This document shows, piece by piece, positions 4,601 to 16,974 of a stretch of DNA of 22,913 nt. The notes under the pieces are model-generated. The model saw nothing but the letters and a program-made list of their open reading frames with translations. It had not been told where the DNA came from and searched no databases. The stretch comes from a virus, in the IMG/VR virus record IMGVR_UViG_3300048686_000413, positions 1-22,913 of that record; one strand, 5' to 3'. How positions within the stretch are numbered: the stretch's first letter is position 1; each line of letters opens with the position of its first letter. The translations under genes were made by a program, and so were the position numbers.

Positions 4601-7327
4601 ATGAATTATTGCGGAATAGACATTGACTACTCACGAGATCAACTTTTTGATTCTTTGGGTCTAAAAAGACTTAAAGAGTCGTATATGTTAGAAACAGAAA
4701 ATTCTCCACAAGAAAGATTTGCTTTTGTATCAAGTAAGTTTGGGTCAAATAAGGAACACGCACAAAGATTATACGAATATTCAAGTAAGCACTGGTTATC
4801 ATATTCTACGCCAATATTGTCATTTGGTAGAAATAAAAACGGTCTACCGATTTCTTGCTTTTTGCCGTATTTACATGATAGCTCAATTGGTCTAGTAGAA
4901 TGTTTGTCTGAGGTTAATTGGTTATCAATGCTTGGAGGTGGTGTTGGTATAGGAATTGGTATCAGATCCGCAGATGATAAGTCCACTGGTGTATTGCCAC
5001 ATTTAAAAACATATGACGCATCATCATTAGCCTATCGACAAGGACGCACAAGGAGAGGATCTTATGCCGCTTATTTAGATATATCTCATCCAGACATTCT
5101 AATGTTTATTGAACTAAGAAAGCCAACTGGAGATCCAAATTTACGGGCACCAAATCTACATCATGGCATAAATATAACCGATGATTTTATGCAGATTATA
5201 GAAAAGTGCATGGAAGACCCAAACTATGACGACTCATGGCACTTAAAAGACCCTCATTCTAATGAAATTAAGGAAACGGTCTCTGCGAAAGATCTATGGA
5301 GAAGAATTCTTGAAACCAGAATGATGACTGGGGAGCCATATATCCACTTCATAGATACATCGAATAATAAAATGCCAGACTTTCAAAAACGGCTAAATTT
5401 AAGTATAAAACAGTCAAATCTTTGTTGTGTAACAGGCGATACAAAAGTATTAACTGACCAGGGTTATCAGGAAATTGAAAAATTAGATGGTCTAGATGTA
5501 AACGTATGGAACGGAAAACAATTTACTGACAGCACAGTTGTTTACACAGGCGACTCAGATAGAATCTACAAAATAGAAACTACTAACGGAAATAGTTTAT
5601 TATGCACACACAATCATAAATTCTATATTCAAAACTCATATAATAAAAATGATATAAGTTGTATATTTGCAGAAGATCTAAAGCCTGGAATGAAGTTAGA
5701 AAAGTGGAGTCTTCCAACAATTGACAGTAAGTCTGAGTTTATTGATCTATATTCTCAAGGATTTTATTCTGGTGACGGAAACACTAATCTATGTCACTCA
5801 TGGATTTATTGGCCAAAATTCTGTTGTATAAATAGACTTTCGGGAAGAATATCCAATGGAGATGATAAAGTAAAAAGAACTTGGCATCACGGCCCAATGA
5901 AAGAAAAGTGTTGGGTTCCATGTGCTAGTTATTCTCTACTATCTAGATTATCATGGTTATCTGGTCTTCTAGATGCCGATGGAACGGTCACTTCTTGTGA
6001 TAAATCACATAGCATACAAATCTCATCTGTAGATAATAAGTTTTTGATTGATTTATCGCTAATGTTAGATGAAATTGGTGTATCGTCAAAAATAAATCTT
6101 GTCAGAAAATCAGGAAAGTATGATCTTCCAGATGGAAATGGCGGATTAAAGAAATATGATTGTCAAGCGGTTTATAGATTAGTTATAGCTGGTAAACAGG
6201 TCGAAAAACTTCTAACTCTGGGGCTGAATTGTGAAAGACTTAAATTTACAAACTCTGGAGGAAATAGAGACGCGACACATTTTATTAAAGTTAAATCGGT
6301 TTCTATAATTGATGGTATTCATAAAACATATTGTCTAAAAGAAAAACTTCGTGGACGAGTTATGTTTAATGGAATTATTACTGGAAATAGTGAGATTATA
6401 CTCCCTACATCTAAAGACAGAACAGCGGTTTGCTGTTTATCCAGTTTAAACATCGAATATTATGATGATTGGAAAAATAATGAACTGTTTATCTCTGACG
6501 TAGCGGAAATGTTAGACAATGTATTGACATATTTTATAGAGAATGCACCAGAACCAATACACCGTGCCAAATTTTCTGCCGCAAGAGAAAGAAGTATCGG
6601 TATAGGAGCACTTGGGTTTCATTCATATTTGCAGAAGAAAATGATTCCATTTGAAGGATTATCAGCGAAAATTCTTAATAAAGAAATATTCAAACATATC
6701 AGAACAAAACTGAATGACGCCAATGAAAGACTTGGTAACGAGCGAGGATCTTGTCCAGATTATAACGATGGATGTGAAAATAAATATATAAACAGAAGAT
6801 TTGCACATGTTATGGCCATTGCACCAAACGCCTCATCATCCATTATAATGGGGAATACAAGTCCATCAATAGAACCAATGAGAGCCAATGCTTATAGACA
6901 GGACACTATTTCTGGTGCGTTTCTTAATAAAAATAAGTTTTTGGATAAAATAATTTCAGAAAAATTCAAAGACTCGCAGGAAATATGGTCAAGTATAATA
7001 GCTAATGATGGATCTATTCAGCATTTAGATCTAGACGACAAAACAAAAGAAGTATTTAAAACAGCAATTGAGATAGATCAAAGATGGGTGATAGAACATG
7101 CTGCTGATAGACAGGAATTTATAGATCAAGCACAGTCACTCAACCTGTTTTTTCTACCAAATGTACAAATCAAATACCTGCACCAATGTCACTTCATGGC
7201 CTGGAAACGTGGTTTAAAAACACTTTATTATTGCCGCTCCGAAAAAATAGCAAAGTCAGATAGAATATCAGAACAAATTGAGAGAAAACTTCTAGGAAAT
7301 ACAGACTGTTTAATGTGTGAAGGATAA
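4601..7327 (+). CDS. nrdA: Ribonucleotide reductase large subunit, class Ia, interrupted by an intein
   Basis: The 908-residue precursor yields a 587-residue enzyme after removal of residues 276-596. The product reduces ribonucleoside diphosphates with NrdB. Visible catalytic residues, aligned from memory to E. coli NrdA: Cys86 in PISCFL (redox Cys225), Cys275 in QSNLC (thiyl-radical Cys439) with Glu598 just after the intein (Glu441), Cys611 in TAVCCLSSLN (Cys462), the Tyr pair in KTLYYC (730/731), and a C-terminal CLMCEG pair (Cys903, Cys906). The mature protein is much shorter than the 761-residue E. coli enzyme, and no ATP-cone is seen at the N-terminus, so dATP activity inhibition is probably absent. 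GGCC content is much lower than in the core genes, suggesting separate ancestry. It overlaps or abuts nrdB. Confidence 0.95.
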   Translation: MNYCGIDIDYSRDQLFDSLGLKRLKESYMLETENSPQERFAFVSSKFGSNKEHAQRLYEYSSKHWLSYSTPILSFGRNKNGLPISCFLPYLHDSSIGLVECLSEVNWLSMLGGGVGIGIGIRSADDKSTGVLPHLKTYDASSLAYRQGRTRRGSYAAYLDISHPDILMFIELRKPTGDPNLRAPNLHHGINITDDFMQIIEKCMEDPNYDDSWHLKDPHSNEIKETVSAKDLWRRILETRMMTGEPYIHFIDTSNNKMPDFQKRLNLSIKQSNLCCVTGDTKVLTDQGYQEIEKLDGLDVNVWNGKQFTDSTVVYTGDSDRIYKIETTNGNSLLCTHNHKFYIQNSYNKNDISCIFAEDLKPGMKLEKWSLPTIDSKSEFIDLYSQGFYSGDGNTNLCHSWIYWPKFCCINRLSGRISNGDDKVKRTWHHGPMKEKCWVPCASYSLLSRLSWLSGLLDADGTVTSCDKSHSIQISSVDNKFLIDLSLMLDEIGVSSKINLVRKSGKYDLPDGNGGLKKYDCQAVYRLVIAGKQVEKLLTLGLNCERLKFTNSGGNRDATHFIKVKSVSIIDGIHKTYCLKEKLRGRVMFNGIITGNSEIILPTSKDRTAVCCLSSLNIEYYDDWKNNELFISDVAEMLDNVLTYFIENAPEPIHRAKFSAARERSIGIGALGFHSYLQKKMIPFEGLSAKILNKEIFKHIRTKLNDANERLGNERGSCPDYNDGCENKYINRRFAHVMAIAPNASSSIIMGNTSPSIEPMRANAYRQDTISGAFLNKNKFLDKIISEKFKDSQEIWSSIIANDGSIQHLDLDDKTKEVFKTAIEIDQRWVIEHAADRQEFIDQAQSLNLFFLPNVQIKYLHQCHFMAWKRGLKTLYYCRSEKIAKSDRISEQIERKLLGNTDCLMCEG
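5426..6388 (+). other. LAGLIDADG-containing intein within NrdA (321 aa)
   Basis: Residues 276-596 form a complete intein. It has block A CVTGDTKVLTDQGY with Cys1, block B NGNSLLCTHNHKFYI with Thr-x-x-His, two endonuclease motifs, GFYSGDG (387-393) and LSGLLDADG (453-461), and block F HKTYCLKEKLRGRVMFNG. The end is IITGN followed by Ser+1. The penultimate residue is Gly rather than the usual His, a known but less common variant. Junctions are clear because SNLC/SEI rejoins to the standard NrdA SNLCxEI motif. The first LAGLIDADG motif is eroded in form (YSGDG), but both acidic residues remain, so endonuclease activity is possible. Insertion lies one residue after the radical cysteine. Confidence 0.95.
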
Positions 7328-7328
7328 A

Positions 7329-8306
7329 ATGAAGAAGAAAATTAAATTGACCGATGAACGTCCATATTTCAAACCGTTTTCATATCCTTGGGCATATGAT
7401 GCTTGGCTGAAACACGAACAAAGTCACTGGATGCACACAGAAGTCCCAATGGTTGACGATCTAAAGGATTGGCAAAAAAGACTATCTGACAAGGAAAAGT
7501 ATTTTCTTACAAACATATTTAGATTTTTCACTCAGGGCGATATAGATGTGGCTAGTGGGTATGTTAATAACTACCTTCCATTTTTCCCACAGCCAGAAGT
7601 TAGAATGATGCTATTGGGATTCGCGGCAAGAGAAGCTTTACACATTGCCGCATATTCGCATCTTATCGAAACATTAGGAATGCCTGAGTCAACATATAAT
7701 GAGTTTTTGTCTTATGCCGAAATGAGAGAAAAGCACGAGTATGTTACAGAAATTTCTAATTCTGGGAAAGAAAAGTCTGATATAGCCACACAAATTGCGA
7801 CATTTTCTGGGTTTACAGAGGGGATGCAGTTATTTTCATCATTTATTATGCTCTTGAACTTCCCAAGGCATGGTAAAATGAAGGGTATGGGGCAGATTGT
7901 TTCATGGAGCCAAATTGACGAGTCTCAACATTGTGAGGGAATGATCCATCTTTTTAGGACGTATATCAACGAAAATAAAGAAATCTGGGACGACGAACTA
8001 AAAAGTAGAATCTACACAATGGCTGAAAAAATGGTAGAGCTTGAAGATAAGTTCATTGATTTATCGTTTGGATTTGGCGAAATAGAGAATTTAACATCAG
8101 ACGAGGTTAAAAAGTATATTAGATACATTGCTGATAGGCGTCTAATTGGTTTGGGACTCAGAGGGATTTTTAAGGTTAAGAAAAATCCACTACCCTGGGT
8201 AGAAGAAATGATTAATGCTCCAATTCACACTAATTTTTTCGAAAATAGAGTTACGGATTATGCAAAGGGGGCCCTAAGTGGGTCGTGGGATGAGGTTTGG
8301 AAATGA
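7329..8306 (+). CDS. nrdB: Ribonucleotide reductase small subunit, class Ia
   Basis: The 325-residue R2 protein holds the diiron-tyrosyl radical cofactor that initiates catalysis in NrdA. All six metal ligands can be placed: Asp71, Glu102 and His105 (EALH), Glu164 (GFTEGMQ), and Glu198 and His201 (DESQH). Tyr109 lies four residues after His105, as Tyr122 does in E. coli, so this is a tyrosyl-radical enzyme and not a radical-less variant. The D71-E102 spacing of 31 equals that in E. coli. The frame opens at GTG 7317, but ATG 7329 has AAGGAT just upstream and starts the protein normally. The next gene starts inside its stop (ATGA). Confidence 0.95.
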   Translation: MKKKIKLTDERPYFKPFSYPWAYDAWLKHEQSHWMHTEVPMVDDLKDWQKRLSDKEKYFLTNIFRFFTQGDIDVASGYVNNYLPFFPQPEVRMMLLGFAAREALHIAAYSHLIETLGMPESTYNEFLSYAEMREKHEYVTEISNSGKEKSDIATQIATFSGFTEGMQLFSSFIMLLNFPRHGKMKGMGQIVSWSQIDESQHCEGMIHLFRTYINENKEIWDDELKSRIYTMAEKMVELEDKFIDLSFGFGEIENLTSDEVKKYIRYIADRRLIGLGLRGIFKVKKNPLPWVEEMINAPIHTNFFENRVTDYAKGALSGSWDEVWK

Positions 8307-8842
8307 TAGTCTTCCCAGATAAACAAATCCTGATCCTAACTCCTCCTCATACAGCCTCAGGATTTCTTCATCGTTTCTATTGTTCTCAAGGGGCTTACTT
8401 CTTAGTGGGCCCCAATTCTGAGGACGTTGTTAGTCATCACTATATGAGGCCGCACAATGCTTATGACCATTTTAAAAAGGTTTTAGTTGTTAGGCGGCCA
8501 TTTGAACGATATGTTGGACTTTTTGAGCACTATAATTGGTGGGGCCAACACACAAGGTCTTATGAGCCAGTTAGTTTTGAGTTTTTTGTTAAAGAGGCGG
8601 TCTTAAAGGATTCTTCAGGATTTCCAATTTTTTACCGCCAAACAATTCAAGAGGCACTGGACGAAGCTAAAATCAAACCAGATGTTATTTGGCGTTATGA
8701 AGACTTAAACAAGCCGCCCGTTGATATTCCAGCCCCAGAGTTTAATCCGCCCAAAAGAGACTATTCTCAATATGAGTGGGCCCGTTATATGATCGAGCAA
8801 ATAGGAAAAGAGGACACAAAACTCTATGAAAACGTACCCTAA
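8303..8842 (+). CDS. Sulfotransferase-like P-loop protein
   Basis: The 179-residue protein begins ILILTPPHTASGFLHRF (residues 9-25), resembling the 5'-phosphosulfate-binding loop of PAPS-dependent sulfotransferases. Residues 60-75 (VLVVRRPFERYVGLF) match the 3'-phosphate segment with its Arg-x-x-x-x-Arg/Ser logic. The terminal WRYEDL is also common in this fold. The likely reaction is transfer of sulfate from PAPS to an unknown acceptor, perhaps a glycan. It is shorter than typical family members (about 250 residues or more), so it may be a minimal or divergent form. The start is ATG 8303 within the nrdB stop; the frame's TTG at 8297 is disfavoured. A methyltransferase gene follows with 17 bp overlap, suggesting a coupled modification pair. 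Confidence 0.65.
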   Translation: MIVFPDKQILILTPPHTASGFLHRFYCSQGAYFLVGPNSEDVVSHHYMRPHNAYDHFKKVLVVRRPFERYVGLFEHYNWWGQHTRSYEPVSFEFFVKEAVLKDSSGFPIFYRQTIQEALDEAKIKPDVIWRYEDLNKPPVDIPAPEFNPPKRDYSQYEWARYMIEQIGKEDTKLYENVP

Positions 8843-9410: not shown

Positions 9411-9899
9411 ATGAAATTGCTAGTAAAAAAACTAAATGATGACGCCTTTATTCCAACTAAGGCACATGATTCAGATGCGGGGTATGATCTTTATTCGCCG
9501 GTTGATATATCTCTACCAAGAGCAACCCCAACAAAGATTCCAACTGGAATTGCACTAAAACTTTCAGATAGGCTTTTTTCTAATCACGAACGATATATTT
9601 GCGGAGATTGTTACGAAGATATTCCAACATTTTGCCCAAACACTGTAGGTCTAATCTGTGACCGCTCCTCAATGGGGGCCAAAGGAATTAAGGTGATGGG
9701 CGGAGTCGTAGATTCTGGATACTTAGGAGATGTCACAGTTTGTCTAATTAATCTAACCGACGTAACCTATGAAATTAAACGCGGCGACAAAATTGCCCAG
9801 ATTCTGTTCATGCCCGTACTTAATCCAACCATCAAAGAGGTCAGCGAATTAGAGGAAACAGAGCGTGGAAACAAGGGATTTGGAAGCTCAGGACGATAG
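9411..9899 (+). CDS. dut: dUTPase with Cys-rich insert
   Basis: The trimeric-type dUTPase hydrolyses dUTP to dUMP, keeping uracil out of DNA and feeding dTMP synthesis. All five family motifs are present: DAGYDLY (22-28), DRSSMGAKG (84-92), GGVVDSGYLGDVTV (97-110), RGDKIAQILF (124-133) and RGNKGFGSSG (152-161). At 162 residues it is slightly longer than usual because of an insert at about 54-80. The insert has Cys64, Cys67 and Cys75 (ICGDCYEDIPTFC), with Cys83 close by, perhaps a zinc site. The P-loop-like motif 5 overlaps the next gene's GTG start. It acts with the dCMP deaminase and dNMP kinase of this window. Confidence 0.95.
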   Translation: MKLLVKKLNDDAFIPTKAHDSDAGYDLYSPVDISLPRATPTKIPTGIALKLSDRLFSNHERYICGDCYEDIPTFCPNTVGLICDRSSMGAKGIKVMGGVVDSGYLGDVTVCLINLTDVTYEIKRGDKIAQILFMPVLNPTIKEVSELEETERGNKGFGSSGR

Positions 9900-10137
9900 T
9901 CATTTTCCAGAAATAGACAGGCAGTTTGAAATAGACTCAAGGTGCGATTCAGGCAATGTTTATGCCAAGTCATGCCATGAACTGTTGAATATGGTAGAAC
10001 ACCTAATCTATTTTATCAATGCGGACAAGAAACAATTTAAAGATCATCATGCCGAATGGTTTGATTATCACAGGAAACGACTTAGACAAATCTTGCCGCT
10101 AAACTACTCTTCCAACTTTAAAGAGTTTAACCCATGA
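9865..10137 (+). CDS. Hypothetical protein, 90 aa
   Basis: I recognise no family. The start is GTG at 9865, inside the end of dut, with GAGGAAA about 7 nt upstream; TTG at 9880, after AAGGGA, is an alternative. The first 30 residues are acidic. The remainder (SCHELLNMVEHLIYFINADKKQ, then HHAEWFDYHRKRLRQIL) looks like two amphipathic helices rich in His and aromatic residues. The stop overlaps the phoH start as ATGA, so the two are probably translationally coupled. Confidence 0.6.
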   Translation: METRDLEAQDDSHFPEIDRQFEIDSRCDSGNVYAKSCHELLNMVEHLIYFINADKKQFKDHHAEWFDYHRKRLRQILPLNYSSNFKEFNP

Positions 10138-10796
10138 AAAAACGAGCCGTTAAAAAGACAGTAGATCAAGAACCACAACGTGAAGTTCAACACAAAATTT
10201 CTGCTAAAACGGAGAATCAAAAGCTATTTATTAGGTCGATTTGTGAGAATGATGTGACATTTGGATTGGGGGCGGCTGGAACGGGCAAGACCATCGTGAC
10301 TATAGGAATAGCCTGTGAACATCTATTGGCCGGAAAAATATCAAGAATAGTTGTCACAAGACCATTTGTTGAGGCAGGCCGTGGCCTCGGCTTCTTAAAA
10401 GGCGATCTAAGCGAAAAACTTATTCCTTGGTCTCGTATATTTGATCAATATTTTTCACACTTCTTGACAAAGGGTGTTTACGAGTCATACAAGGCACTTG
10501 GGGTTATTAGTTTTGAGCCATTGGAATATATGCGTGGGATGTCTTATTCCGGTTATGTAATTTTGGATGAGTCTCAAAATGCAACTTATGAACAACTAAA
10601 AATGCTTTTAACTAGGCTTAATGCAGATTCAAAGGCCATCATCATTGGGGATGAGAAACAAACCGACCTAAAACGCTCAGATGTTCTCACAGTGGCCCAA
10701 AAACTCCAGTCAATTGATGGTGTGGGTCTAGTTCAATTCACAGAAGACGATATTTGCCGCCATGATATTGTCGGAAAGATTTTGAGGGTTCTCTAA
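10134..10796 (+). CDS. phoH: PhoH-like ATPase
   Basis: The 220-residue protein is a PhoH-family P-loop ATPase. Walker A is GAAGTGKT (46-53), and VVTRPFVEAGRGLGFLKGDL (73-92) is the diagnostic PhoH segment. Walker B is VILDESQN (142-149), and IIGDEKQTDL serves as the sensor region. Family members relate to superfamily 1 helicases and are often linked to RNA metabolism and phosphate stress. PhoH is a common gene of large marine and other environmental phages. The first 25 residues are basic and lie outside the domain. No nuclease (PIN) domain is fused. Confidence 0.93.
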   Translation: MKKRAVKKTVDQEPQREVQHKISAKTENQKLFIRSICENDVTFGLGAAGTGKTIVTIGIACEHLLAGKISRIVVTRPFVEAGRGLGFLKGDLSEKLIPWSRIFDQYFSHFLTKGVYESYKALGVISFEPLEYMRGMSYSGYVILDESQNATYEQLKMLLTRLNADSKAIIIGDEKQTDLKRSDVLTVAQKLQSIDGVGLVQFTEDDICRHDIVGKILRVL

Positions 10797-11204
10797 ATGA
10801 AAACAGTTCTCTTTATTATTGCGGCCTTATTTGGGGCCAGTTGCTTCGCCCAGGAATTTATTCCAATTTCACGCCCCTACCCAATTTATCAGCCTATTTA
10901 TCCATGTCAGCCTTGTTATCCGGGCTATATCATAGTGAATCCTGGCCACCCACTTCATCCCTGGACCAGACAACTTTTAGCCCCAAATCCTCCAGGCACG
11001 CTAAACTCCTATGAACTTGAAATTGGGCACCACTACAGAAATGTTGGTAATATCAATGGACTGAACTACTATAGAGAAGTTCCACTGACATGGCAGAATG
11101 TGGATTCTCATGACGGGCGTGGATTCAGGCCACAACTTAGACCGTATGAAGGAAATCAGCCTTATTGGGGAAATAATTCGTCAATTCGTCTCTATCAAAG
11201 GTAA
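10797..11204 (+). CDS. Secreted Pro/Tyr-rich protein of unknown function
   Basis: The 135-residue protein opens with a textbook signal peptide (MKTVLFIIAALFGASCFAQ; likely cleavage after CFA). The next 35 residues are a low-complexity Pro/Tyr tract with a PIYxP-type repeat and a CQPC pair. The C-terminal half is Asn/Tyr/Arg-rich and polar with no known domain. It would leave the cytoplasm and could be a surface or cell-wall-associated protein. The gene directly precedes the DUF1501 gene (4 bp gap), and another exported protein (thioredoxin-like) is encoded at 2363-2809. No catalytic motif is visible. Confidence 0.75.
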   Translation: MKTVLFIIAALFGASCFAQEFIPISRPYPIYQPIYPCQPCYPGYIIVNPGHPLHPWTRQLLAPNPPGTLNSYELEIGHHYRNVGNINGLNYYREVPLTWQNVDSHDGRGFRPQLRPYEGNQPYWGNNSSIRLYQR

Positions 11205-11208
11205 GATC

Positions 11209-12408
11209 ATGAATAGAAGAGATTTTCTTGGACTGAGTGCGGGTTTAACCCTATCGCTCAACAATATGACGTTTAGTTTTGACGGAAAGGGAGAAGCCTC
11301 TGTTATATTTGTTTGGCTTGGAGGTGGAATTGCGGCACAGGAGTTTATTAATCCATTGCCCGATTCTTTGTCAGAATACAAGTCAAGTCGTGGAGACATA
11401 TTTACAAAGTCTGGATATCATCTTGGCGGTGATTTTGTAGAACTAGCAAAAATATCAGACAAAATAAGTGTTGTCCCATCATTTCACCACCGCGACGGAA
11501 ATCATGAAAGTGCGACTGCATGGGTCATGACATCACATTTTACTATTCCAAATCAATCTCCACAGGCCCCATCTTATGGTAGTCTAACCTCTGTAAAATT
11601 TGGAACGAATCACACAAATGGAATGCCCACATATGTGAAAATAAACCCAATATTTGGTGATGACGCTGCTTATATGGGTGCAAAATATATGGGGTATGAC
11701 GCGGATAAAGAGGGTGTTGCCAATTTGTATCCAAGAACTGAACAATCTCGATTTGATAGACGTATTGGTCTAATGAAAGAGGTAGACAAGGGCAAAATCA
11801 GTTCTTTGGGCCAAGAATGGAGTCAGGTTAAAGATCAGGCCGTCAATATTGTAAGAGGTGCTGCATCAAAGGCTTTTGATCTAAAAAATGAGCCAGAAAA
11901 GTCATACCAAGAATATGGTGGTGGCAAATCAAGATTTGGAACAGACTGCCTCTTAGCTAGACGACTTGTTGAGGGCGGTGCGAAATTTGTAACGCTTGTA
12001 AACAATGGTTGGGATATGCACACAGATATTTCTAATGGCTTTGCAAATAAAGGCCCGGAACTAGATAAATATTTGACCGTTTTAATTTCTGATGTAATTG
12101 ATAGGGGTTTAAATACTCTGGTTGTTGTCACATCTGAGTTCAGTCGCACCAAGAAAAATCAAACAGGGGGCAGGGATCACCAGCCAACTGCTGGAACTAT
12201 TTTGTTTGGTGGAGCTGGAAAACATGGAAGAAAGATAGGGTCAACTGATAAAACTGGCCTTGCTGTTCAAGATTCTCCATTTTTACCAACTGATCTGGCT
12301 TGGACAATTGGTTCGCATTTGGGAATTGACAAACAGATGATCCTGACCGATAATTCTGGGCGACCACGCCATATTTTCGAAACAAACGCAAAGAACATTC
12401 TCACATGA
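11209..12408 (+). CDS. DUF1501-family protein with Tat-like N-terminal signal
   Basis: The 399-residue protein starts MNRRDFLGLSAG, an Arg-Arg Tat-type signal followed by a short hydrophobic stretch. The open frame extends to 11098, but ATG 11209 gives this native start. Family marks of DUF1501, an alkaline-phosphatase/sulfatase-like fold, are clear: FVWLGGGIAAQEF early, FGTDCLLARRLVEGGAKFVTL, GWDMHTD, TSEFSRTKKNQTGGRDHQP, then GTILFGGAGKHG and the C-terminal PTDLAWTIGSHLGI with NSGRPRHIF. The family is especially abundant in Planctomycetota, usually beside DUF1549/DUF1553 genes, which are absent here. Catalytic activity in the family is not established. At about 400 residues it is slightly short. 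A phage copy suggests acquisition from such a host and action in the envelope; both are inferences. Confidence 0.85.
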   Translation: MNRRDFLGLSAGLTLSLNNMTFSFDGKGEASVIFVWLGGGIAAQEFINPLPDSLSEYKSSRGDIFTKSGYHLGGDFVELAKISDKISVVPSFHHRDGNHESATAWVMTSHFTIPNQSPQAPSYGSLTSVKFGTNHTNGMPTYVKINPIFGDDAAYMGAKYMGYDADKEGVANLYPRTEQSRFDRRIGLMKEVDKGKISSLGQEWSQVKDQAVNIVRGAASKAFDLKNEPEKSYQEYGGGKSRFGTDCLLARRLVEGGAKFVTLVNNGWDMHTDISNGFANKGPELDKYLTVLISDVIDRGLNTLVVVTSEFSRTKKNQTGGRDHQPTAGTILFGGAGKHGRKIGSTDKTGLAVQDSPFLPTDLAWTIGSHLGIDKQMILTDNSGRPRHIFETNAKNILT

Positions 12409-12415
12409 GGAAATA

Positions 12416-12607
12416 ATGCCCTGGCGTATCCAATATAGCAAAAAGTATTTAGACAACATCACCTATGAATATGAGGAAAGCTGGTCTGTCACAGATTCAG
12501 AGCCCGGAAAATATGATGCGGAATCTAAGTGGTTTTGTTGTTATAGTTTGGCTGAGGCAGAGTGGTTATTAGATGTCTTAACAAAGATGGAACCACATGA
12601 TTCTTAG
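12416..12607 (+). CDS. Small hypothetical protein, 63 aa
   Basis: ATG at 12416 follows GAGGAAATA 7 bp after the DUF1501 stop, a good ribosome binding site. The product is acidic and aromatic (KKYLDNITYEYEESWSVTD, then WFCCYSLAEAEWLLDVL), with a likely amphipathic C-terminal helix. I recognise no family. It overlaps the start of the small membrane protein at 12597. Confidence 0.6.
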   Translation: MPWRIQYSKKYLDNITYEYEESWSVTDSEPGKYDAESKWFCCYSLAEAEWLLDVLTKMEPHDS

Positions 12608-12713
12608 TTATTTCGATCCTGGGGCCGGTTCTCTACTCCTACAATTGTTTGTGGGAGGGATTTCTGGCCTTTATGTGGCGACAAAATACATCCTAAAAAG
12701 GATGGGACTTTAG
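12597..12713 (+). CDS. 38-aa small membrane protein with DPGAGS motif
   Basis: The ORF runs from ATG 12597 to TAG 12711-12713. It starts with SYFDPGAGSLLLQLF and continues through a hydrophobic Gly-rich helix (FVGGISGLYVA), ending in a basic tail (KYILKRMGL). One transmembrane helix with positive-inside C-terminus is likely. The FDPGAGSLLLQ opening recurs in small bacterial membrane proteins of unknown function, which supports a real gene rather than chance. It overlaps the previous gene by 11 bp in the style of this genome and is the third potentially envelope-directed product in the 10797-12713 group. Confidence 0.68.
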   Translation: MILSYFDPGAGSLLLQLFVGGISGLYVATKYILKRMGL

Positions 12714-13192: not shown

Positions 13193-13375
13193 ATGCCAAA
13201 AATTATAGCATATGTTATGACCAATCTAGCTGGTTCAAAATGCCAAGAAGAGTACGATCTTCCGGACGATTGGAACGAAATGAGTGAGGATGAGCAACAA
13301 AATTATCTAGATGATATTGCCACAGAACATATGGCGAATAATTCGGAGTATGGAGCTTATGTCAAAGAGGATTAA
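13193..13375 (+). CDS. Small acidic phage protein, 60 aa
   Basis: AAGGATTAAAATG gives a good ribosome binding site. The product (ELPDDW-like motif as DLPDDWNEMSEDEQQNYL, then EYGAYVKED) resembles a family of roughly 60-residue phage proteins with a WDEMSEEE-type core, function unknown. It is rich in Asp and Glu and may fold as beta hairpin plus helix. It overlaps the next gene by 17 bp. Confidence 0.65.
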   Translation: MPKIIAYVMTNLAGSKCQEEYDLPDDWNEMSEDEQQNYLDDIATEHMANNSEYGAYVKED

Positions 13376-13784
13376 GAAAACCGCCCAACAACTTAAAAAG
13401 GGCGAAAGTATAGATATCCACGATCTCAAGTTTAATCCGGTTGAGATAGACCGGTCCAGAGAGGTCGAGATTGATGATATCTGTATGTTTTGCAAAAAAG
13501 ATTTATGTGAGTGTGATAACACGGCGGCTTATGGATACGTTAAAAAGGAATTGTACGACTATAAAAAAGTTGGAGATTTTGCCTTGGCAAAACGTGACTC
13601 TTTTTCCAAGTGGGAGAAGGAGGCCAAAGACCAAGAATATGCAGATTCCTCCCGTTTGGCCGCCCACAAACTTGACATGGAAAAACGTGGGGCCAAGCAG
13701 TATGACATGAAGGATGAGGTTAGGCGAGAGGTTCTATCCAATCCGGATAAACGGCTTAAATATATAATGACTGGCGAGACATGA
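13359..13784 (+). CDS. Hypothetical protein with Cys cluster
   Basis: The 141-residue charged protein starts MSKRIKKTAQQLKKG. The frame opens at 13311, but ATG 13359 sits in the usual overlap position. Residues about 45-55 (CMFCKKDLCEC) form a CxxCx4CxC cluster that may bind zinc. The rest is helical and charged (SFSKWEKEAKDQEYADSSRLAAHKL). I recognise no family. Its stop overlaps the next start by 4 bp. Confidence 0.6.
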   Translation: MSKRIKKTAQQLKKGESIDIHDLKFNPVEIDRSREVEIDDICMFCKKDLCECDNTAAYGYVKKELYDYKKVGDFALAKRDSFSKWEKEAKDQEYADSSRLAAHKLDMEKRGAKQYDMKDEVRREVLSNPDKRLKYIMTGET

Positions 13785-14011
13785 CGGAAGACGATTTTCC
13801 AAGTCCTTACTGTGAAGATTGTGGAGCCTGTGGCGAGGAGTGGTGTTGTAAACCCACCAGATGTAAAGATGGCCTAAACTGTCTATATCCAGACTATTTG
13901 GCGACGCCGAGAGTGGCTTATATGAGATTAGACCAAATAATGGAAGTCCTTGACAAGAATCTCCCAACTGACATTTCCATAGAAAAAATCAAACGGATCT
14001 TAGATGCCTAA
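13781..14011 (+). CDS. Small Cys-rich protein, probable zinc-binding
   Basis: The 76-residue protein has seven Cys within residues 11-34: C-x2-C-x2-C-x4-CC, then two more. This is followed by a helical C-terminus (YMRLDQIMEVLDKNL). The first part has the same Cys spacing as the partial protein starting at 22782, so the two probably share a module. Start ATGA overlaps the previous stop. No known family recognised. Confidence 0.6.
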   Translation: MTEDDFPSPYCEDCGACGEEWCCKPTRCKDGLNCLYPDYLATPRVAYMRLDQIMEVLDKNLPTDISIEKIKRILDA

Positions 14012-14213
14012 CTACTTCGAAAAATTCGCCGTTTGTTCAGAGTGCGACATGAACATCATGGAAGTCTGTGGAACTGAGGGCGAAACTAAGACTAAAATTC
14101 GCTGTAAATGTGGAGGACTCTCTTGGCTCATTAAACATGATGAACTCAGAGTGGAACGGGCCGGAAAAATCCACGAGGAAAAAGGGGTTAGAATAATTGA
14201 ACGAAACGAATAA
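14004..14213 (+). CDS. Small zinc-ribbon-like protein, 69 aa
   Basis: Two Cys pairs, VCSECDMNI and IRCKCGGLSW, plus one intervening Cys, suggest a zinc ribbon. A basic and acidic tail follows. It overlaps both neighbours (8 bp upstream, 17 bp downstream). Possible nucleic-acid or transcription-machinery binding is only inferred from the fold. Confidence 0.6.
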   Translation: MPNYFEKFAVCSECDMNIMEVCGTEGETKTKIRCKCGGLSWLIKHDELRVERAGKIHEEKGVRIIERNE

Positions 14214-14427
14214 ACGCCTCTTTGAGGCCCTAAAACAAATTCTTGATCTTCCTGAAAACGTCACATATCTCTCACTAACTCTTGAGATGGATAGGCATCC
14301 AGAACTTATCATAAATCGGCTGGTTGACAATGTGACGATTGAAGAAGACTTTATTATCAGACTTCCTAAATTTGAGCGGCTAAAAATTGGGCTCGAAGAA
14401 GGAATTGAACATGCTAGGAACGCTTAA
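14197..14427 (+). CDS. Hypothetical protein, TTG start, 76 aa
   Basis: TTG at 14197 starts MNETNKRLFEALKQIL. AGGGG lies about 10 nt upstream, and no ATG gives a comparable N-terminus. It is an acidic, probably all-helical protein with no recognisable motif, coupled to the next gene by one shared base. Confidence 0.55.
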   Translation: MNETNKRLFEALKQILDLPENVTYLSLTLEMDRHPELIINRLVDNVTIEEDFIIRLPKFERLKIGLEEGIEHARNA

Positions 14428-14696
14428 TGCACGATAAAACAGAGTATAATGAATCTGGACAGGTTGGACCCGGCGAGGTCTGTGCCGTCCACACAAGTTC
14501 AAAAGATGGTGATGTTTACAAAATTCTATATGCAGGCCAAAATATCTATCATCCCACTGAACATAAAAGATTAAGGAGAGGCGAGGACAAAAAGTTCCGC
14601 TCAGTCTCCAAAGAGGTTTTTGAGGGCTATCTATCCTTTCTGGTTGGCAGAGAGGAACGTAAATATAGACAAATTTCGAGGATTTTTAATGGCTAA
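14427..14696 (+). CDS. Hypothetical protein, 89 aa
   Basis: ATG 14427 shares a base with the previous stop (TAATG). The sequence has a predicted beta-rich first half (EVCAVHTSSKDGDVYKILYAG) and a basic helical second half (KKFRSVSKEVFEGYLSFLVGREERKYRQISR). I recognise no family. Nucleic-acid binding is possible from charge, nothing more. Confidence 0.55.
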   Translation: MHDKTEYNESGQVGPGEVCAVHTSSKDGDVYKILYAGQNIYHPTEHKRLRRGEDKKFRSVSKEVFEGYLSFLVGREERKYRQISRIFNG

Positions 14697-15024
14697 AGAA
14701 GTCAAATATAAGAGCACGCTTAATGACATTGACAAGATGTGGATTGAGCGTAACTCCAGCATGACCCCACAACAGATCGTTAATAAGTTCATTCAGTGTT
14801 ATGGCGGCGACAAAGTTCCAAGTCTTGAAACTGTAACCTCTTACCGCGAAAAGTATCTTAGTTCTTCAGGTGTTACTACAACTAAGGCCAATTCTCCAAT
14901 TCTTGCAAAGAAGGGCACGGCCACTGTTATGACTCAGGGACACTCTGAATTGGACGACTCACACAATAAGAGCCGCATTAATAAACAGCCGCCCTGGGTT
15001 ACTAAGATTTTTCAGGATAACTAA
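14689..15024 (+). CDS. Hypothetical protein with possible HTH, 111 aa
   Basis: The frame is open from 14620, but ATG 14689 with GAGGA upstream gives a sensible start (MAKEVKYKSTLNDID). Residues about 14-50 (IDKMWIERNSSMTPQQIVNKF, then VPSLETVTSYREKYL) resemble a helix-turn-helix of the type seen in small DNA-binding or terminase-small-like proteins. A Ser/Thr/Lys-rich linker follows and a short conserved-looking end (PPWVTKIFQ). The DNA-binding role is tentative. Confidence 0.58.
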   Translation: MAKEVKYKSTLNDIDKMWIERNSSMTPQQIVNKFIQCYGGDKVPSLETVTSYREKYLSSSGVTTTKANSPILAKKGTATVMTQGHSELDDSHNKSRINKQPPWVTKIFQDN

Positions 15025-15474
15025 ATGTTAAAGCCAGACAACCTAGCAACTGACAATTCCTGGGGCGAAAACGAAGATAAAACGGTCTGGCAGGTCAAAT
15101 TGAGCAATGGTCTAAACATATTTTTGGATGATGAGAGGTCAGGCCCAGCATGGTTGCGTCTGGCCTCTTTTTGTCGGGCCACAGGAAATACAATTGACAA
15201 TATGTGGCTCAGGTTTAGATCTCATACAGAGACGATAGGACCGGCCTCAGGCTACTATTTTATTCGTTCAAGTCTCGGGACGCCAACTGATAAACGCACT
15301 TATAACCACTTTATTGTGGGCACCCTTCATGGAGACGTTATTAAGTGCAAAAGCTGGTTAATTCCAGAATTGACCGTTCAAGAGGAATTTGACAGGAGTT
15401 TAGATGATAGATTCTACGAATCGGACCAGAAATACGATCTTCTCATTCCGGGGTCTCAAAATGTACCCACTTAG
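15025..15474 (+). CDS. Hypothetical protein, 149 aa
   Basis: It starts directly after the previous stop. The protein has an IFLDDERSGPAWLRLASF segment that superficially recalls the LDDER motif of a small phage protein family (cyclic-phage-like proteins with LDDER..P), but the rest does not match. The C-terminal region is acidic. It overlaps the following gene by 14 bp. Function unknown. Confidence 0.58.
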   Translation: MLKPDNLATDNSWGENEDKTVWQVKLSNGLNIFLDDERSGPAWLRLASFCRATGNTIDNMWLRFRSHTETIGPASGYYFIRSSLGTPTDKRTYNHFIVGTLHGDVIKCKSWLIPELTVQEEFDRSLDDRFYESDQKYDLLIPGSQNVPT

Positions 15475-15871
15475 ATTTCATTCAGAAAAAGCAGGGGCGG
15501 CACACTATTTAGTTGAACTTGTGGCCGTAAGACAGGCCAAGAGAGACGGAATTCTTCTAACAATGGGCTTTTGGAGAGATCCGGTCTGGAAAATCTGGTA
15601 CGGCGGGCAAATTCAGGCCGCACAAAGACTGGTAAATTCTTTCAAAGAGGAAAATATCGACTGTATTGTTGAGGCCATTGGTGAATTAACATGGCTAACT
15701 TCTCTGCGGGCCAAACAACTCAGTGAACTAATCTATGATAAACTGGCCAAAAAAGAGGCCAAAAAGCAAAAAGAAAAAGATTTTGTGGCCCCAAAACAAG
15801 AAGTAGAAGTGGTGGCCAAAGAGGTCACTGGGGTCAGACGCAAAACCAAAATTGAAGAGGTTGATTTGTGA
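15461..15871 (+). CDS. Hypothetical protein with Lys-rich C-terminus
   Basis: ATG 15461 follows GGGGTCTCAAA; the frame opens at 15404, but the later start fits. Residues 1-90 form a mixed fold (AAHYLVELVAVRQAKRDGILL, then PVWKIWYGGQIQAAQRLV). Residues about 94-136 are Lys/Glu-rich (KKEAKKQKEKDF). Its stop overlaps the GTG start of the recombinase, so the two are probably co-translated, which hints at a recombination-linked role. No family recognised. Confidence 0.6.
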   Translation: MYPLRFHSEKAGAAHYLVELVAVRQAKRDGILLTMGFWRDPVWKIWYGGQIQAAQRLVNSFKEENIDCIVEAIGELTWLTSLRAKQLSELIYDKLAKKEAKKQKEKDFVAPKQEVEVVAKEVTGVRRKTKIEEVDL

Positions 15872-16974
15872 GTATTCTTGATTATAGGGAACAACTTGCC
15901 AAAACTCTGGGCAATGGATTTATTACGGCTGATGAGATTTCTAACTCTAAACGGGCGATTATTCCAATTTCTCCAGCCGTTGATATTGCCCTAAATGGTG
16001 GGCTTTTAACTGGAACAGTCAGTATTTTTGCCGGAAGTTATAAAACTGGCAAGAGTACAACAGCCTTCCAAGCCATGAAAAACGCCATTGACCTATATGA
16101 TTTTCCCTGTGCCTATATTGATATTGAGGGGCGAGGAGGAGATCGTATCTTCTCTGCCGTTAAGGGAATTGATAGATCAAAGATTCTGATTGTTAAAACC
16201 ACACGAGAAAAGATTTATAGTGCCGAAGATTTTCTTGCCGAAACTGAAAAACTCATTGAGACAGTGCCCAACATAGTAATTGTCATGGACTCAATTTCCA
16301 GACTTTATACTAGGGCGGCCAGGGATGATGAGGTTTCAGGAACTAAAAGATCTCCAACTAGTAAATTACTCTCAGACTTTATATCAAGGATTTCTGGCAT
16401 TGTTCCTGCCATGAATTCCACCTTAATTTGTATTGCTCAGACCTATGATAATATTTCTGGTTATGGGGCTAAAAAGTTAGTGAGTGGTGGAAACGCCGTA
16501 CAATTCCAAAACGATACCTCCATGATTGTAAAGTCTCGAAAGGACTATGAAGAGGGGGCTGGAGAAAAGCTCAAGAGGGTTGGCAACATTCTCGAATGGG
16601 ATGTTGAAAATGTGCCAATTGGAGCCGTCCCAACCCACCCCATCAAGTCATATATTAGATTTGGCTATGGCTGTGATAATATTCGTGAGGTTTTAGTCAT
16701 GGCCACAGATTTAGGGCTCATTAAGAAGTCTGGGGCATGGTATCAAGTTAATGGAGAGTCAGTACAAGGAGAGGACCGGGTCTATAAATATCTTGAGGAA
16801 AATCCAGAACAATACACCTTGCTCTGGAATACAATCAAAGACATGTGCCTTGATCCAGATCAACTATCAAGTGTTTGTAAAAACAAAGAGGAATTTGAGG
16901 CGGCCAACCAAGTTTCCTTTGATGATGAGCCAAAAAAGGCCAAAAAGAAGAAAAAGGAAGAAGATGAAGGCTAA
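15868..16974 (+). CDS. uvsX: UvsX/RecA-like recombinase
   Basis: The 368-residue protein forms ATP-dependent filaments on ssDNA for strand exchange. Walker A is GSYKTGKST (56-64), Walker B is IVIVMDS (136-142), and a central ISRISGIVPAMNSTLICIAQ segment plus SGGNAVQFQND fits the L1/L2 loop region of phage RecA-like proteins. It is a GTG start overlapping the previous stop. The C-terminus is a Lys-rich then acidic tail (KKAKKKKKEEDEG). The context (nuclease, possible UvsY-like protein, helicase, primase) supports the T4 UvsX role, although it could also be called RecA. The ATG of the next gene overlaps its 3' end. Confidence 0.88.
   Translation: MSILDYREQLAKTLGNGFITADEISNSKRAIIPISPAVDIALNGGLLTGTVSIFAGSYKTGKSTTAFQAMKNAIDLYDFPCAYIDIEGRGGDRIFSAVKGIDRSKILIVKTTREKIYSAEDFLAETEKLIETVPNIVIVMDSISRLYTRAARDDEVSGTKRSPTSKLLSDFISRISGIVPAMNSTLICIAQTYDNISGYGAKKLVSGGNAVQFQNDTSMIVKSRKDYEEGAGEKLKRVGNILEWDVENVPIGAVPTHPIKSYIRFGYGCDNIREVLVMATDLGLIKKSGAWYQVNGESVQGEDRVYKYLEENPEQYTLLWNTIKDMCLDPDQLSSVCKNKEEFEAANQVSFDDEPKKAKKKKKEEDEG

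Follow-up and report, generated by a model that had tools for sequence, protein, structure and literature searches.

We know of no DUF1501 (PF07394) protein with known activity. In two papers, the family is described as lacking biochemical characterization and as belonging to a module of PVC bacteria tied to compartmentalized cells (PMC4452313, PMC4960237). In this module, DUF1501 is accompanied by DUF1549 (PSCyt2) and DUF1553 (PSD1), and we found a DUF1549/DUF1553-like gene near DUF1501 in 60 of 78 cellular loci. DUF1501-DUF1800 pairs occurring with a bacterial chitin synthase likewise combine a twin-arginine signal, a polysaccharide locus, and horizontal transfer, but they are cellular, have a different partner, and lack phage genes (PMC5122149). 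Phages do carry host-derived, putatively exported phospho-ester hydrolases (phoA in cyanophages and phoD in soil phages), although these belong to another family and differ from the DUF1501 genes described here, which have tandem paralogs and small exported partners. The literature that we searched contained no paper treating DUF1501 as a phage gene; one phage paper names it, as a weak CDD match in Pseudomonas phage ZC03. One phage protein in BFVD is annotated as DUF1501; the family has thus already been named in a phage by automatic annotation.

The stretch of DNA analyzed here (the window) is an IMG/VR virus record of 22.9 kb. It carries, in this order, a dUTPase-like gene (9411..9899, + strand), a 90-aa gene, a PhoH-like ATPase gene (10134..10796, + strand; PF02562, E = 4.9e-55), a Pro/Tyr-rich protein gene, DUF1501, a block of small genes, and genes for a UvsX-like recombinase, a DnaB-like helicase, a Toprim primase, a deoxynucleoside monophosphate (dNMP) kinase, and a PD-(D/E)XK nuclease; a ribonucleotide reductase (RNR) is also encoded. 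The downstream block up to UvsX (phrog_97, 1.7e-39) spans 13311..16974 on the + strand. An earlier note on this DNA had singled out four consecutive + strand genes, all of which are present: the secreted Pro/Tyr-rich protein (10797..11204; 135 aa), whose start abuts the PhoH stop codon; the DUF1501 protein (11209..12408; 399 aa, class A); a soluble 63-aa protein (12416..12607); and a 38-aa DPGAGS protein with a single transmembrane (TM) segment (12597..12713). The last two genes overlap by 11 bases. The DUF1501 start needed correction from that of the mechanical open reading frame (11098) to 11209 (MNRRDFLG), since the latter lies 4 bases past the stop of the preceding gene. GC content and composition of this cassette are uniform with its flanks, and scans for promoters, terminators, and RNA structure around it yielded nothing notable compared to shuffled sequences. 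A scan with DnaB revealed no close phage.

Several other genes of the window are described here in their own right. The large subunit of RNR (4601-7327; 908 aa) is split by an intein that carries a LAGLIDADG domain. At the contig edge (15-980), a cysteine-peptidase-like protein follows the C-terminal part of an intein (Intein_splicing 56-84), the N-extein lying beyond the contig; the peptidase has relatives near DUF1501 arrays in five other loci (L123, L137, L140, L145, and L153). The adjacent low-GC gene (977-1996; ~31%), with a helix-turn-helix-like N terminus and an HNH-looking C terminus, is possibly a recent mobile insertion. The window also encodes a stand-alone PAS domain protein in a phage context (3570-3932; 120 aa, PF13426, 2.6e-9) and a thioredoxin-like protein with a signal-like N terminus (2363-2809). 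An exported thioredoxin-like protein is encoded immediately upstream of DUF1501 in loci L081 and L082.

The family assignment made in the earlier note is borne out by a PF07394 match of 222 bits (cutoff of 27; E = 1.5e-65) over profile positions 3 to 386 of 390. The N terminus, MNRRDFLGLSAGLTLSL, has a Tat-like RRxFL start, as a sequence match only and with a short hydrophobic stretch, and twin arginines occur within the N-terminal 60 residues of 301 of 310 DUF1501 homologs. The protein is thus putatively exported via a predicted twin-arginine signal. PHROGs contained no family for the window protein or for that of L012, NCBIfam had no family matching the window protein, and no relative of the window or L110 protein was found among GenBank phages.

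The earlier note suggested seeking DUF1501 beside phage genes in viral metagenomes, and IMG/VR scans revealed it in hundreds of contigs. An alignment of cellular DUF1501 proteins plus the window protein recovered 72 confirmed loci. Four window-like sequences recovered 287, a figure that is not a number of virus species because there is some redundancy among these contigs; the best 80 of these 287 show 37 to 47% identity. Single-protein scans of IMG/VR and of genomes gave no match, probably because their 8-mer seeds are too specific; the loci came from sub-alignment queries. DUF1501 was present in 50 of 50 whole virus records, with one to four copies per record. These viruses fall into a window-like group (group 2) and another group (group 1) whose DUF1501 is of class M. 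Terminase was found in 29 of 49 group 1 records and, as a clear match (>50 bits, open reading frame of >600 aa), in 7 of 31 group 2 records. Weak phrog_2 (terminase) matches of ~220 aa in group 2 were discounted as probable cross-hits to the P-loop of PhoH, which left these seven strong ones. In L010, terminase and portal-like genes directly follow DUF1501.

Close relatives of the window DUF1501 (37 to 47% identity) are located in the same dUTPase-PhoH-UvsX-DnaB-primase-kinase-PD-(D/E)XK block. In L136, dUTPase and PhoH are followed by four small genes, three DUF1501 genes, and then the small-gene block of the window leading into UvsX; in L141, a DUF1501 array precedes the downstream block with its genes in the same order as in the window. 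PhoH is a conserved neighbor in L127, L133, L110, and L136, and dUTPase relatives adjoin PhoH or DUF1501 in L007, L110, L127, and L136. In many other loci, the array is preceded by other genes of this kind, by a PD-(D/E)XK nuclease in L110, L127, L133, L139, and L152 and by RNR genes in L100, L109, and L124. Residence in phages and conservation of the gene are therefore shown at the sequence level.

In window-like loci, DUF1501 frequently occurs as an array of different classes. Class A alone was the most common state (40 loci), followed by A-B-C (14), A-B (11), A-C (7), A-B-D-C (7), A-D (2), A-B-D (1), and A-C-B (1). Of the 43 loci that have more than one class, 42 follow the order A-B-(D)-C, and A-C-B is the sole exception. 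The classes form separate clades in the tree and are therefore not fresh tandem duplicates. Within the sequence available, class A is the only one present in the window and in its sister L079. Two contigs of 221 and 206 kb (L035/L039 and L042/L052) each have two near-identical DUF1501 regions ~150 kb apart, and these assemblies are possibly concatenated or overcircularized. In L118 (3652-4896), the PF07394 match of the class A gene contains one in-frame TAA, which may be explained by a frameshift, an edge effect, or decay.

The earlier note had also remarked that the usual DUF1549/DUF1553 partners were missing. This is true of the window, where we looked for such a gene and found none, and of the window-like phages, all of which lack it, but it does not extend to group 1, which has the partner directly upstream of DUF1501. 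A protein combining DUF1549 and DUF1553, with a signal-like N terminus, is encoded in 34 group 1 loci and lies at most 50 bases upstream of DUF1501 in 22 of them; PF07583 was found in 26 of 49 whole group 1 records. Group 1 phages thus have the same pair as the PVC module, usually placed directly upstream of DUF1501, whereas window-like phages have DUF1501 without the pair and often multiplied instead. The structure of the partner was poorly predicted (pLDDT of 66), and a fold search with the model returned no significant match.

What accompanies DUF1501 in window-like phages is a variable set of small exported proteins, in agreement with the earlier view of this neighborhood. Among small proteins (≤200 aa), a signal- or TM-like N terminus was found in 42% (80/191) of those within two genes of DUF1501 versus 17% (136/812) of those farther away (Fisher P = 9e-13, overstated because the loci are related). 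Pro/aromatic-rich secreted proteins are ~8-fold enriched within 500 bases of DUF1501 (11/282 versus 10/1,968; P = 1e-5, again overstated by the relatedness of the loci), and many of them touch a DUF1501 gene in related phages. The window protein of this type has a signal peptide, 17 Pro and 12 Tyr residues, 14% Pro, and 15% aromatic residues. It resembles its counterparts beside DUF1501 in composition and place, and BLAST against them detected no homology. Further exported neighbors are Cys-rich proteins and weak EF-hand proteins. The four genes singled out earlier do not hold together as a conserved unit, since only DUF1501 is demonstrably conserved. For the 63-aa protein, neither Pfam nor PHROGs gave a significant match (one PHROG reached E = 0.097), and no relative was found in any of the loci compared. 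The 38-aa protein likewise had no relative: the DPGAGS motif was absent from all other viral loci compared, and the YFDPGAGS pattern had no other exact match in IMG/VR.

Envelope-type genes also occur near DUF1501, namely, those for PAP2, a sulfotransferase, mannose-6-phosphate isomerase, and an exported trypsin-like protein. In the window, a weak sulfotransferase-like gene (8297..8842, + strand; PF03567, E = 0.0056, below the cutoff) is possibly linked functionally to DUF1501; a clearer one lies near the array of L136 (27.6 bits; cutoff of 22). A PAP2 phosphatase-superfamily membrane protein is encoded beside DUF1501 in L137 (9038-9760) and 13 other loci, and an IscA-type iron-sulfur protein (PF01521) is encoded a few hundred bases from DUF1501 in 20 virus loci (e.g., L099, 12021-12338).

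A maximum likelihood tree of 53 representatives bears on the donor clade, for which the earlier note had proposed a phylogeny. The window and L079 form a pair (100/99) inside a virus-only clade of 15 (100/99). L160 and L161, two contigs from Planctomycetota whose remaining genes look cellular, are the sisters of this clade (100/99). A planctomycete-like donor lineage is thus supported by the tree, in which the cellular sample was chosen by similarity to class A and L160 and L161 are contigs of metagenome-assembled genomes (MAGs). L161, from a Pirellulales MAG, has two class A genes and, within 10 kb, a gene that shares 50% identity with phage class D and is the closest cellular relative of that class among the sequences compared. 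The virus label requires at least five changes on the starred branches, indicating that several transfers happened. Records L189, L190, L220, and L225 contain DUF1501 of a planctomycete/verrucomicrobial type under the titles Klebsiella pneumoniae or Akkermansia muciniphila MAG; these titles are probably wrong.

This gene ancestry favors a planctomycete-like host for the phages, with SAR202 (Chloroflexota) as the other candidate. In the cellular genome set, phage-like contigs of the clade occurred only in one SAR202 MAG, with a terminase and a DUF1501 array resembling that of L152; among five genomes of that SAR202 family, one other has a distant DUF1501. These contigs may represent a true host link or co-binning. 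The two contigs (L158 and L159; MAG OSU_TB57), of 64 and 152 kb, are phage contigs of the window-like lineage, and L159 and L152 encode Pro/Tyr-rich proteins that match exactly across the residues compared.

An AlphaFold model of the window DUF1501, made with 38 related sequences, had a pLDDT of 80 and a pTM of 0.82. Its top Foldseek matches in PDB were LtaS (best), sulfatases, and alkaline phosphatase (E = 5.4e-7; probability of 1.00; TM score of ~0.4). A profile of the sequence gave sulfatases, LtaS-type proteins, and ENPP4 as top matches over D286 to R313, each nonsignificant. The predicted fold is therefore alkaline-phosphatase/sulfatase-like at the superfamily level. DUF1501 resembles LtaS and sulfatases in this fold and in its predicted export but differs from them in the low TM score, in having "EF" where the profile alignment places the sulfatase metal pair "DH," and in lacking the formylglycine signature C/S-x-P-S/A-R (the stretch reads NHESATAWVMTS). 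A Pfam search returned neither a Sulfatase match nor a known phosphatase family. Nine residues are near-invariant in 310 proteins (E/D45, H99, D269, H271, D286, E310, R313, D323, and H324), and the window retains all nine. H99 and T108 are 9 residues apart, which resembles the spacing of nucleophile and conserved Thr in alkaline phosphatases and sulfatases; judging from this spacing, His99 may lie near the expected nucleophile position. Planctomycetota and Verrucomicrobiota members, among them the Pirellulales-type class A contigs L160 and L161, are 34 to 48% identical to phage class A and share the Tat-like start, the full-length domain, and the near-invariant residues, but they usually lie near DUF1549/DUF1553-like genes and have Ser/Thr46 (nearly all cellular members) and Asp48 (most of them). 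The window has neither feature, with Phe46 and Asn48 (both common to L079), and its activity could therefore be altered or weak.

We propose that DUF1501 is a planctomycete-derived exported module that is made during replication and modifies the host envelope, a reading that we consider about evenly balanced between right and wrong. An uncultured tailed phage lineage would have taken DUF1501 genes from Planctomycetota and retained them within its nucleotide-metabolism and replication block, so that the protein would be produced in the replication phase. The host Tat system would export DUF1501, with the small partner proteins going out via Sec, and the folded protein would be a metal-dependent enzyme of the alkaline phosphatase superfamily, a hydrolase or transferase of phospho- or sulfo-esters, that works in the periplasm or at the surface of the host and alters an envelope polymer. 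Activity, substrate, timing, host, and benefit are what we infer here; the most likely benefit would be a modified host surface that blocks other phages or stabilizes the infected cell. Envelope modification is favored over lysis by the combination of an exported enzyme-like protein, the replication block, the envelope-type neighbors, and the ordered paralogs. Counting against an envelope enzyme are the TM score of only ~0.4, the alignment of "DH" with "EF," Phe46 and Asn48, and the lack of homology between the partners of different phages; a planctomycete host is put in doubt by the phage-like contigs of this clade in the SAR202 MAG.

Nutrient scavenging would also be compatible with a place in the replication block: exported DUF1501 would free phosphate (or sulfate) from organic esters for phage nucleotide synthesis. 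This is the best rival because of PhoH and the phage precedents, which include phoA and pstS (PMC5083919) and the biochemically active phoD (PMC10987575), and it draws as well on the alkaline-phosphatase-like predicted fold and the PhoH, dUTPase, RNR, and dNMP kinase genes around DUF1501. A scavenging phosphatase would nevertheless hardly need three to four paralogs of ancient divergence, kept in near-fixed order, with variable small exported proteins. Pfam matched DUF1501 to no known phosphatase family, and canonical catalytic residues were not recognized in it; we regard this explanation as possible but doubtful. A catalytically inert exported scaffold, with the paralogs coating the host envelope or membranes as structural proteins, would suit the fixed paralog set, the Pro/aromatic-, Cys-, and EF-hand-type exported partners, the altered residues 46 and 48, and the preferential occurrence of the module in compartmentalized PVC bacteria, as cited in PMC4452313 and PMC4960237. 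The nine near-invariant, polar, active-site-like residues, all retained in the window, argue for chemistry, and we consider a mere coat unlikely. Planctomycete envelopes are unusual, and a lysis or release factor that weakens them late in infection would likewise be exported, as DUF1501 is predicted to be, among membrane and secreted neighbors. Nearly all loci, however, lie in the replication and nucleotide block, away from recognized lysis and structural genes (L010 is the exception); being in the wrong gene block, a role in lysis is quite improbable. Host DNA or misassembly, which can occur in IMG/VR contigs and might be suspected from the two sister contigs in the SAR202 MAG, is an extremely improbable source of these genes given the same synteny in dozens of contigs, the virus-only clade (100/99), and the GC content uniform with the flanks, so the chance misassembly raised as a danger in the earlier note does not account for them, short of a single assembly error common to all these contigs.

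Envelope modification by exported DUF1501 could also take a more elaborate form, which we offer as speculation that is rather unlikely to be correct in full. Up to four planctomycete-derived paralogs in fixed order, together with Pro/aromatic-rich, Cys-rich, or EF-hand-type exported proteins, would assemble in the host envelope in the replication phase and remodel the planctomycete surface through a noncanonical, His-centered active site of alkaline phosphatase fold, giving a new type of superinfection exclusion or host takeover.

The occurrence of DUF1501 in hundreds of viral contigs, often as ordered arrays beside small secreted proteins, indicates that this phage gene module is real; it has apparently not been described before, and it probably acts on the host cell envelope during infection. 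The literature searched contains no description of an ordered, multiparalog phage DUF1501; the carriage of host-derived exported modules by phages is known. The DUF1501 family is large, lacks a known function, and serves as a marker of planctomycetes and their relatives. Viruses keep only genes that help infection, so an ordered phage array offers a compact and tractable set for finding the function of the family. DUF1501 also marks a phage lineage that is probably tied to planctomycete-like bacteria, whose phages are hardly known, and its presence in phages predicts an exported host modification step in infection.
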